Source of the DNA: Sulfuricurvum sp.
GTDB taxonomy: Bacteria > Campylobacterota > Campylobacteria > Campylobacterales > Sulfurimonadaceae
Direction: 5' to 3'
DNA: 51,382 nt
Assembly (NCBI GenBank): GCA_024637215.1
Contig: JAGXFM010000075.1
Span: 1-51,382 of the forward strand
The notes beneath the pieces are model-generated. The model did no database searches, was not told the origin of the DNA, and saw only the letters and a program-made list of their open reading frames with translations. This document shows, one piece after another, positions 27,757 to 34,197 of this stretch; position 1 is the stretch's first letter; every line of letters starts with the position of its first letter. The position numbers and the translations under genes are program-made.

Positions 27757-28209
27757 TTATTCCCCTTTTAATGCACGTTCCATATCCCGTTTGAGACTTT
27801 TCTCTTTCAAATCATCCCGTTTATCGTAGAGCTTTTTCCCTTTCACAATAGCCACTTGCATTTTGGCGAGGTTTTTATCGTTAAAATAGATGCTGAGCGG
27901 TACAAGGGTAAAACCCTCTTTCTCCACCCCTTTAAACATCTTGTCTATTTGCTTTTTGTGCAGAAGCAGTTTACGGCTTCCCCGCTCTTCGTGGGTGTAA
28001 TAGTGATGGGTGGTATCGAGTACCCCGATGTGGACACCGAATACAAATGCTTCGCCCCGAACGATTTTGATAAAGCCGTCTTTGAGGTTGACCCGTCCGG
28101 CGCGGAGTGCTTTGACTTCAGACCCTTTGAGGACAAGTCCCGCTTCGAATTTCTCTTCGATGTAGTAGTCAAAAAAAGCTTTTTTATTAGTGGCTATATT
28201 GTCGCCCAT
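27757..28209 (-). CDS. smpB: SsrA (tmRNA)-binding protein SmpB
   Basis: SmpB binds tmRNA and brings it to stalled ribosomes for trans-translation. The 150-residue protein shows [37 protein letters not shown] in recognisable pieces (given here as [16 protein letters not shown]), [18 protein letters not shown] and the basic C-terminal tail [20 protein letters not shown]. The tmRNA gene is not in the window. It is the last gene of the uvrD-truB-csrA-ispE-smpB run. Confidence 0.94.
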
Positions 28210-30026: not shown

Positions 30027-32075
30027 TTAAAGCTTTTCGACGAAAGAGGCGAGAATATCCCGTTTATTTCCACCGAAGTTAATGCTCAGTTTAAATTCGC
30101 GTCCCGCTTTGCTAACCCCTTCAACCCGACCCGCACCGAATATTTTGTGGCGGACCAAATCCCCTTTTTTATAGGAGGTGTTTTTTTCTAAAATCAATGA
30201 CCCTTCGCATAAGCCCGCTTCATTGATAAAGCGGCTTTTTTGCAGATCGGTACGTCTCCCCTTGTAAAAGCGGCTATTGACGTTTGAGAGGGTAAGGTTG
30301 CTTTTGGCACGTGTGATTGCAACGTAGCCTAGACGTCTCTCCTCTTCAAGATCGCTGCCATCACCGATAAGAGGTAAAAATCCCTCTTCTAAACCGATGA
30401 CGAAGAGGTGTTCGAACTCCAACCCTTTGGAAGCGTGGATACTCATAATGTAGATGCTCTCACCCTCTACCTGATCTTGTTCACTTTGCAGTGTAATATC
30501 GTTGAGAAACTCAGCGAGCGAGCTTTCCGGATTTTGTTTAACGTAATCGCGAAACAGTCCATAAAACTCGTCGATATTGGCGATTTTCTCCGCTTCATCC
30601 GGAAGCCCTTTAAGGGTCTCTTTGATTTTGAAACGCTCTTCGAGCAGATCGATAAAACGGTAAATTGCCTCTTCAGAGACACGACGAAGTTCGAGAATCT
30701 CCGCAACGAAATCACGCAGTTCACCGGCACTCTTTTTACGTACTAAAGTTTCAAGCTCACTGTCACTGAGGGTGGAGATAAATTCAAACATTGATTTAGA
30801 CACTTCGATAGAAGAGAGCTCGATTTTATCAATGGTTGCTTTCCCAAGACCTCGTTTGGGTTTATTGATAATCCGTTTGAGGGAGAAATTGTCATGGACA
30901 TTGGTGATGACCCGCAGATAGCTGATAAGGTCTTTGATTTCGGCACGATCATAGAAGCGCAAACCGCCGACAAGTTTATAAGCGACCCCTGCACGGTTTA
31001 GACCTTCTTCGAGGGATCGGCTGAGGGCGTTAATCCGGTACAAAACGGCGATCTCATTCGGCCGCACCCCTTGATTGATGAGTCCTTTGATTGTTTTAGC
31101 AATTTTTTGGGACTCTTCACTCTCGTCGTTTGAGGTTATGGTCTGAACATCATCTCCTCCCTCTTTTGTGGCGATAAGGGTTTTGCCCAAGCGGGAGCGG
31201 TTGTGTTCGATAAGGGCGTTAGCAACGGTGAGGATTGGCTGAGTAGAGCGGTAGTTGTGCTCTAATTTGACCACCATTGCATCGGCAAAATCTTGATCAA
31301 ATTCGAGGATATTGCGCACATGGGCTCCACGCCAGCCGTAGATACTTTGGTCATCATCTCCGACAACGCAGAGGTTATTGTGGGTAGAGCAGAGTTTTTG
31401 AAGAAGTCTGAGTTGAAGTTCATTGGTATCTTGGTACTCATCGATCATAATGTAGCGGTATTTTTCCGAGGTTTGAGTACAAAGCTCAGGATTTTCATCA
31501 AGTAATTTATAGGTTAGGCAGAGTAAATCGTCGAAATCAACAAGGTTATTTTTGAGCAGATAGGCTTCATACTCTTCATAGATTTTAGCAATGTGTTTGT
31601 AGTTGGTTAGCTCTGCTTGAGCATAGGCTTCGCTAGGATCAATAAGGGAATTTTTATAGCGGGAAATTTCACTGGCGATTAACGCGGTAGGGAGATCGGC
31701 ATTGATTTTTTTGATGATTTTCTTTTTGTCATCGGTATCGATCACGACGAAATTATTGGCACGATGGAGCAAGTGAATATGGAATTTTAAAAAGAGAAGA
31801 CCGAATTTATGAAAGGTACAGAGTAACGGAGGATAGGAGTTTTGGGAGATTAGCCCCATCGCCCGCTCACGCATCTCTTTTGCCGCTTTATTGGTGAAGG
31901 TGAGGGTGAGGGTATTACCCGCTGGAATTCCTACCTGATCGAGAAGATAGGCAAGACGTGTCGTAATGGTTTTTGTTTTTCCGCTTCCTGCACCCGCCAA
32001 AATGAGCAAAGGACCGTCAATCCGCTCTACCGCACTGCGCTGTGCCTCATTAAGGTTTGAGAGAATTCCATCCAT
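30027..32075 (-). CDS. UvrD/PcrA/Rep-family ATP-dependent DNA helicase
   Basis: This superfamily 1A 3'-5' helicase acts in repair and replication restart. The 682-residue protein shows the Q-motif LNEAQRSAV, Walker A ILAGAGSGKTKT, the DEYQDTN Walker B, GDDDQSIYGWRGA, and later MSIHASKGLEFEHLFVIGLEEG and RRLGYVAITRA. Uvr/Rep assignments are blurred in Campylobacterota, so no symbol is given. A longer frame from 32123 begins with TTG inside the promoter TATAAT; the ATG at 32075 fits family starts. Confidence 0.93.
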   Translation of the reverse strand: MDGILSNLNEAQRSAVERIDGPLLILAGAGSGKTKTITTRLAYLLDQVGIPAGNTLTLTFTNKAAKEMRERAMGLISQNSYPPLLCTFHKFGLLFLKFHIHLLHRANNFVVIDTDDKKKIIKKINADLPTALIASEISRYKNSLIDPSEAYAQAELTNYKHIAKIYEEYEAYLLKNNLVDFDDLLCLTYKLLDENPELCTQTSEKYRYIMIDEYQDTNELQLRLLQKLCSTHNNLCVVGDDDQSIYGWRGAHVRNILEFDQDFADAMVVKLEHNYRSTQPILTVANALIEHNRSRLGKTLIATKEGGDDVQTITSNDESEESQKIAKTIKGLINQGVRPNEIAVLYRINALSRSLEEGLNRAGVAYKLVGGLRFYDRAEIKDLISYLRVITNVHDNFSLKRIINKPKRGLGKATIDKIELSSIEVSKSMFEFISTLSDSELETLVRKKSAGELRDFVAEILELRRVSEEAIYRFIDLLEERFKIKETLKGLPDEAEKIANIDEFYGLFRDYVKQNPESSLAEFLNDITLQSEQDQVEGESIYIMSIHASKGLEFEHLFVIGLEEGFLPLIGDGSDLEEERRLGYVAITRAKSNLTLSNVNSRFYKGRRTDLQKSRFINEAGLCEGSLILEKNTSYKKGDLVRHKIFGAGRVEGVSKAGREFKLSINFGGNKRDILASFVEKL

Positions 32076-32111
32076 ACCGTTCTTGCCTTGCTCGTAATAT
32101 ATAGTTGATTT

Positions 32112-32117
32112 ATTATA
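32112..32117 (-). promoter_or_regulatory. -10 box for the helicase operon
   Basis: On the minus strand a perfect TATAAT lies 36 bases before the helicase ATG. It would drive uvrD/pcrA-truB-csrA-ispE-smpB. It is divergent to the lysR promoter region. Confidence 0.5.
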
Positions 32118-32189
32118 GCCCAAGTTTTCTGTTATTTAAATTCCATGACACTATCGGGATTTTTTTTGCATTCAATCTCTTGCATTGGT

Positions 32190-33149: not shown

Positions 33150-33611
33150 TTATTTTTTCTTCAAAAACTTCTGATTTTCGGGATTTGCGAGCAGTGCGCT
33201 CATCGAGTTCTGAACCCCTTCATGCTTTTCAATATTGATAATAGGATGTTGCTCTTGCGGGAGTGCTAAGTTAACAAATGCGGGAGTATCATCGATAATT
33301 ACTTGGACGATTGAGAGTAACGGTACGGAGACGAAACTGCCGATATTTTCATGACCGAATCCTGCTTCAAAAATTAAAATATCATTATCGATTCGGGCAC
33401 TTTCAAAGGTATATCCGGCTAGAAAAAAGAGGGTCATGGCTCGAAACTCTTCACTTAAGTGTTGCGGGAGAGGCGGATCAAAGGTGACATGATCAATTTT
33501 ACATAAAATACCGAAGTTTTGGTCGTTTTCAAAAAGATAAATGAGCATATCTCGAACATGATTTTCCATCAAACGTGCGAATGAAGAGCTTTTAATAATA
33601 TCAAATAACAT
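33150..33611 (-). CDS. SspB-like protein, putative ClpXP adaptor
   Basis: The 153-residue protein is not an obvious member of a named family, but its plan resembles SspB, the adaptor that tethers ssrA-tagged substrates to ClpXP. It has an N-terminal helix (FARLMENHVRDMLIYLF), then MTLFFLAGYTF, ILIFEAGFG and SFVSVPLLSIVQVIID, which line up with the 'MTIVLQ..F..LxFGG..xxxxIPFxAI' pattern I remember from alphaproteobacterial SspB. The tail QKFLKKK resembles the short basic ClpX-binding tail of such proteins, after a flexible linker. This is inference from memory without an alignment. It is the third gene after cysK and the class IV aminotransferase. Confidence 0.5.
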   Translation of the reverse strand: MLFDIIKSSSFARLMENHVRDMLIYLFENDQNFGILCKIDHVTFDPPLPQHLSEEFRAMTLFFLAGYTFESARIDNDILIFEAGFGHENIGSFVSVPLLSIVQVIIDDTPAFVNLALPQEQHPIINIEKHEGVQNSMSALLANPENQKFLKKK

Positions 33612-33627
33612 AACGACAAACCTGTTT

Positions 33628-34197
33628 TTAGGAAATTATACCATTTTCGACTTCAATGAACCCTACCATCACATTCATGATCCCCACTTTGGTCGCTTTC
33701 GCGATATCGGACACACTAAGAGGTGCAGGGGTGAGGAACCCTTCCTCGAGCAAACGTGCACGTGTGGTTCCTGTAAGTAAAGGGGTTTGAGGGGTGAACC
33801 ATTTCCCCTCTATCTCCAATGCAATATTGGCGATAGTGGTATCGGTAAGAAAGCCATTTTTGACGATGAGAACGTCATCACACATTTCACGTTGTTCAAA
33901 TAAGCGCTCAAGTGCTTCTCGATCGGAATATTTGATATCGTACTCAATCTCATCGCTGATGAGCAATTTGAGGGAAGTGATTTTTTTCGGAATATAAGGG
34001 TGAAATTCGATGGAATATCCCTCTGCATTATAAAGAAAACGGCATCGATAGATTCCGAGTTTAGGGGGAAAAATGAGTGCATGTAAGTCATACGTTTTTT
34101 GAATGTTAAGGGTATGGAGGGTAGCTTCGAGACGCTCCTGATGGTAGGAGAGATGTAAGGGGGAACCGTTCTCGCATCGAAGCGTCTCTAGGAGCAT
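33628..34197 (-). CDS. class IV aminotransferase, aminodeoxychorismate lyase-like (PabC-type)
   Basis: This PLP enzyme of 189 residues has the catalytic lysine at about K89 (DIKYSDRE), the cofactor loop GFLTDTTIANIAL near residue 115 and LLTGTTRARLLEEG near 140. It is much shorter than branched-chain aminotransferases (about 300) and matches short PabC-like proteins that make 4-aminobenzoate for folate. The partner PabB is not next to it. The start lies directly after the cysK stop. Confidence 0.8.
   Translation of the reverse strand: MLLETLRCENGSPLHLSYHQERLEATLHTLNIQKTYDLHALIFPPKLGIYRCRFLYNAEGYSIEFHPYIPKKITSLKLLISDEIEYDIKYSDREALERLFEQREMCDDVLIVKNGFLTDTTIANIALEIEGKWFTPQTPLLTGTTRARLLEEGFLTPAPLSVSDIAKATKVGIMNVMVGFIEVENGIIS

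Follow-up and report, generated by a model that had tools for sequence, protein, structure and literature searches.

A probable divergent SspB adaptor in Campylobacterota whose gene covaries with an aromatic residue of the tmRNA tag

Results

The sspB-like locus in Sulfuricurvum

The window analyzed here, a stretch of 51,382 nucleotides, belongs to a Sulfuricurvum genome whose closest named contigs are at most 96% identical to it. An earlier sequence-only reading had singled out an uncharacterized protein of 153 residues as a possible SspB-type ClpXP adaptor, and had noted that smpB lies in the same window. Exactly this open reading frame, with the motifs then quoted, was recovered on the minus strand, while many stop codons interrupt the plus strand over these positions; smpB was likewise where it had been said to be. 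Because orthologues occur throughout the family and the phylum, the frame is a real gene and not a chance one. The core of its product contains MTLFFLAGYTFESARIDNDILIFEAGFGHENIGSFVSVPLLSIV, and its C-terminus reads QKFLKKK. The features of the locus are as follows.

33150–33611, minus strand: sspB-like gene, 153 aa, ATG start, putative divergent SspB adaptor (open reading frame, orthologues, fold)
33258–33611, minus strand: predicted SspB fold, N-terminal helices and beta core, residues 1–118 (AlphaFold model, fold searches)
33354–33371, minus strand: FEAGFG motif, residues 81–86, aligning with FNARFG (72–77) of E. coli SspB
33216–33257, minus strand: variable linker, residues 119–132 (mean column entropy 3.1 bits)
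33153–33215, minus strand: C-terminal tail, residues 133–153, conserved by column entropy, proposed ClpX-docking peptide
27757–28209, minus strand: smpB, tmRNA partner (PF01668, E 2e-54)
30027–32123, minus strand: UvrD-type helicase, conserved downstream neighbor of the sspB-like gene (neighborhood and domain match)
33628–34197, minus strand: class IV aminotransferase, directly upstream of the sspB-like gene and a frequent neighbor in relatives

In SspB proteins, a flexible linker bears the C-terminal peptide that binds ClpX. The tail of the window protein has a column entropy of 1.55 bits, lower even than that of the core (1.76 bits), and is set off from the core by the variable linker. Its consensus, SMxxFLSNPENxKFLKK, has a basic end, with S136, N143, P144 and N146 nearly invariant, and the AlphaFold model places helices of low pLDDT in it. 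By analogy, the variable linker and conserved end appear to form an SspB-like layout, in which the tail would dock on ClpX. The peptide itself is close to neither known ClpX-binding peptide: NPENxKFLKK stands in place of the RPALRVVK of E. coli SspB, and an F-x-K-K element near the end (QKFLKK, against LDSFRKK) is shared with alphaproteobacterial SspB, the last residues being NQKFLKKK in the window protein and SLDSFRKKN in that of S. meliloti.

Distribution and gene neighborhood

Orthologues were present in 96 of the 101 genomes of the family and in 198/200 genomes of Campylobacterota, and a search with a profile built on 72 diverse members found them in 387 of 397 Campylobacterota genomes, all of the genomes in these phylum searches belonging to the window's own order rather than to deeper branches. 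The protein is strongly diverged in genera g29 and g58 (genomes G115, G212, G267, G326, G442), where the profile E values range from 1e-17 to 1e-30, most genera reaching 1e-40 or better; the tag retains Phe or Tyr in these genomes.

The upstream neighbor is pepF, encoding an M3 oligoendopeptidase F, in 33 of 43 loci (for example L091, L110 and L126), and in some loci the two genes overlap by a few bases, a pairing that may represent a degrade-and-trim operon. Downstream, uvrD and truB are common, and smpB follows a few genes beyond the sspB-like gene in Sulfuricurvum and Sulfurospirillum. Since the published gene order in C. jejuni is pyrB-pepF-X-uvrD, with X the hypothetical protein Cj1100 (PMC4004267), the orthologue in that species is Cj1100. 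Among viral sequences, we found no homologue of the Campylobacterota type in IMG/VR contigs, and PHROGs gave weak, scattered matches, almost all of them in functionally unassigned families. By gene order, HP0469 is probably the orthologue in H. pylori.

Sequence relation to known SspB proteins

The window protein searched alone against Pfam (PF04386 included), NCBIfam and PDB sequences gave no match, so that the kinship predicted for it becomes visible only through the family profile and the fold. Against PDB sequences, the 72-member profile returned only designed helical repeats (E 0.5). Both nulls are failures of sensitivity and not of the SspB hypothesis. When the members were scanned singly, PF04386 was the commonest Pfam family (6/72, best E 0.012), and the NCBIfam SspB models matched 10, 5, 2, 2, 2 and 1 of the 72 (best E 0.0012). 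Searching 200 Campylobacterota genomes with PF04386 gave as its strongest, sub-threshold match the orthologue itself, in G249, and also found that of G202. No curated Pfam or NCBIfam cut-off was reached, the best PF04386 score in the phylum being 15.1 against 27 bits, and the Campylobacterota protein therefore lies outside PF04386 as this family is now modeled.

Comparison with shuffled sequences revealed a clearer signal. Set against 14,400 composition-matched shuffles, 33 of the 72 members scored above the 99.9% quantile with a gamma/betaproteobacterial SspB profile built from six sequences. Wider SspB alignments were limited to records of a plasmid collection. With the Campylobacterota profile, E. 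coli SspB scored above all 12,000 of 12,000 decoys. The alphaproteobacterial profile scored none of the 72 members better than shuffles, contrary to the resemblance to alphaproteobacterial SspB that had been suggested from the sequence alone. Profile-profile probabilities were 42% against gamma/beta and 0.3% against alpha SspB, although the six-member SspB alignments are too shallow for these values to decide. Residues F81, A83, F85 and G86 of the window protein align with F72, A74, F76 and G77 of E. coli SspB, VSVPL follows the aligned FG in both proteins, and F81 and A83 are invariant in all 72 sequences. A literature search for point mutants of SspB found none. The relation in sequence is to gamma/beta SspB, whereas alpha SspB is close only in fold.

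Predicted fold

An AlphaFold model of the window protein, made from the 72-row alignment, had a pLDDT of about 96 over residues 11–110 (block means 90–98). Foldseek against the PDB placed SspB entries at all of ranks 1–18 with probability 1.0. In VIA, all 12 SspB entries came first (Z 11.2 to 8.8), ahead of the first other structure at 7.0; the best was Caulobacter 2qas (Z 11.2, rmsd 3.8, 109 residues) and the lowest 8et3 (Z 8.8). A separate model of an H. pylori-type orthologue gave the same picture, with SspB at ranks 1–12 (Z 11.8 to 9.2, the next 7.5) and Foldseek probability again 1.0. The predicted SspB fold is confirmed by these two models, and the structure comparison proposed for the protein from its sequence was borne out, every solved SspB standing on top.

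Set beside E. coli and Haemophilus influenzae SspB (PF04386; 1ox9, 1ou8, 1yfn, 8et3), the protein shares the fold (Z 8.8–10.8), the FxAxFG...VSVPLxxVxxI core and, apparently, the layout of a linker with a conserved C-terminal peptide. It differs in its score below all curated cut-offs, its identity of about 13–19%, its longer loops before and within the core, and its location outside any sspA operon. Alphaproteobacterial SspB (Caulobacter 2qas/2qaz, Agrobacterium 2nys) is equally close in fold (Z 10.8–11.8), and likewise showed no sspA linkage in the S. meliloti and Sphingomonas loci that we saw. SspB-named proteins of phages phiA8-29 and Noxifer, at 11–15% identity, were among the best fold matches in a viral library.

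The tmRNA tag and covariation with the gene

A tmRNA was found in all 50 of the genomes first checked. The host tag called by ARAGORN is ANNTNYRPAYAVA, and it begins A-A-N-N-T-N-Y when the tmRNA's own alanine is counted as position 1. It therefore shares A2, N3 and an aromatic position 7 with the E. coli tag, whose start, AANDENY, is the part bound by SspB (PMC8512704). Searched as a DNA pattern, (A/V)NNxx(Y/F)xPAxA occurred in 365 of 397 genomes and 66 of 68 genera, and the reversed pattern in none of the 397. In the alphaproteobacterial tag, AANDNFAEEFAVAA, the aromatic residue is at position 6, not at position 7. The tag of the H. pylori-type genome, VNNTDYAPAYAKAA, is presumably that of H. 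pylori.

The sspB-like gene was carried by 363 of the 365 pattern-matching genomes. Another 24 genomes had the gene but lacked the pattern; the 21 whose tags could be read all had Tyr or Phe at position 7, and no tmRNA was obtained from the other three (G047, G362, G425). Tyr or Phe thus occupies position 7 in 384 of 384 judgeable gene-bearing genomes, 363 of them by the DNA pattern rather than by individual tmRNA calls and 21 by reading. Only two genera lack the pattern, and it is these same two that lack the gene; Leu stands at this position in each of their seven genomes: the four of g43 carry ANNNKL, ANNKKL or ANTNKL, and the three of g65 carry ANKKEL. At genus level, gene presence and the aromatic residue are associated (Fisher p = 4.4e-4).

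The tag also showed some variation elsewhere. In genus g25 of family f7 (loci L284, L286, L287, L289, L290), some tags have APQRVAA, VPMRVAA or MPQRVAA as their final residues, very unlike the usual PAYAKAA; the NNxxY half is retained. At positions 1587–1640 of locus L291 (genome G288), a tmRNA has a tag frame without the expected stop (ANNTDYRPARSNVSY...) and received no ARAGORN call, which reflects a sequencing error or an unusual tag.

Two losses of the gene

Because g43 and g65 stand apart on a ClpX tree, which requires two changes (a single change sufficed in 0 of 200 bootstrap trees), the sspB-like gene was lost twice independently, and these two events are the whole of the independent support for covariation. 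In g65, pepF and uvrD abut or overlap. The g43 genomes other than G166 have, directly after pepF, the gene that H. pylori-type genomes carry on the far side of sspB; in G166, pepF is followed by a gene from a more distal downstream position. The pepF locus showed no remnant of sspB in either genus, and with the locus this clean the absence is a deletion and not an assembly gap. Three single drafts (G281, G382, G417) also lack the gene and have Tyr at position 7; as no pepF was found in them, an assembly gap and a recent loss are indistinguishable, and either may be the cause.

The ClpX partner

The host (genome G000) has two clpX genes, with PF06689 matches at E 1e-15 and 1e-13. Their products are paralogues of 404 and 410 aa (C36:12442, minus strand; C42:17958, plus strand; loci L225 and L248), both with the zinc-binding N-domain, and two full PF06689 matches were also found in G010, G253, G264 and G215. 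PF06689 found no match in ClpX of the gene-less genera or of the H. pylori type. We considered a joint loss of the ClpX zinc domain in the gene-less genera, but rejected it on the sequences, which retain the four cysteines; the CxxC...CxxC of the N-domain is present in 20 of 20 genomes read, gene-less genera included. The misses are due to divergence and not to loss of the zinc domain.

Discussion

The covariation of the gene with the tag residue and its clean deletion in two lineages with a changed tag support an adaptor role, as had been proposed for this protein, and together with the fold they make it very likely that the window protein is a divergent Campylobacterota SspB delivering tmRNA-tagged proteins to ClpXP. 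In the mechanism that we infer, which comprises tag binding, docking of the tail on ClpX, dimerization and delivery, the N-terminal helix and beta core (residues 1–118) would bind the N-terminal half of the tag (A-ANNTNY), a key contact being the aromatic residue at tag position 7. The flexible linker and the basic, conserved tail would engage ClpX at its N-terminal zinc domain, and tagged products of stalled translation would then be handed to ClpXP. It is more doubtful that SMxxFLSNPENxKFLKK is a new type of ClpX-binding motif and that the common pepF-sspB pair couples ClpXP delivery to a peptide-trimming oligopeptidase, an extension that we put forward only as speculation.

Gene loss and tag change could both be by-products of fast evolution, in which case their covariation would be uninformative on function. 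ClpX of g43 and g65 (loci L266–L272) indeed sits on long stems, of 0.72 and 1.03 changes per site against a median end branch of 0.21, and its zinc domain is below PF06689 detection. We nevertheless regard this explanation as unlikely, since other long ClpX branches (G134, 0.86; G126, 0.77) retain both gene and aromatic residue, as do g29 and g58, the genera in which the protein has diverged fastest, and the same position changed to Leu in both lineages. The protein might instead have the SspB fold and serve mainly other substrates, RseA-like or regulatory, with tag binding minor or absent. SspB folds do bind several peptides, the SspB-RseA complex (1yfn) being among the fold matches, and the C-terminal half of the tag varies freely in gene-bearing lineages (APQRVAA, PNYAKAA). 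Given that the gene covaries with the aromatic residue (384/384 with it, against 0/7 in the gene-less genera) across two clean deletions, we think this very improbable. That the protein is instead a small, conserved beta-barrel from a different superfamily (Sm/Hfq-like or WYL-like), similar to SspB in topology only, is hardly credible: Hfq and WYL domains do occur in the fold lists (Z 4.5–6.8), but all 12 SspB entries rank above them over about 100 residues (Z 8.8–11.8), and the FxAxFG...VxVPLxxIxxI signal beats shuffles.

The reading of the protein as a divergent SspB bears directly on the literature. H. pylori cannot do without tmRNA, and it needs tagging for competence and stress resistance; studies of this species described its tag as lacking the SspB motif and predicted SspB to be absent (PMC2584231, PMC2862035). 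Our full-text searches, which covered literature outside subscription journals, found no report of SspB from this phylum, in agreement with what the sequence-only reading had supposed. Given this and the published prediction of absence, we judge that a divergent SspB has been overlooked in Campylobacterota, in contradiction to the statements that SspB and its motif are missing from H. pylori.

The phylum with this putative adaptor includes both H. pylori and C. jejuni, and if the adaptor is present, the degradation of tagged proteins in Campylobacterota must be re-read. If the proposal is true, the protein would bind the peptide AANNTNYRPAYAVAA, and would bind neither its Y7L form nor AANNNKLAPAYARAA. 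The paired loss of the putative adaptor and the tag residue would then offer a natural experiment on SspB recognition.
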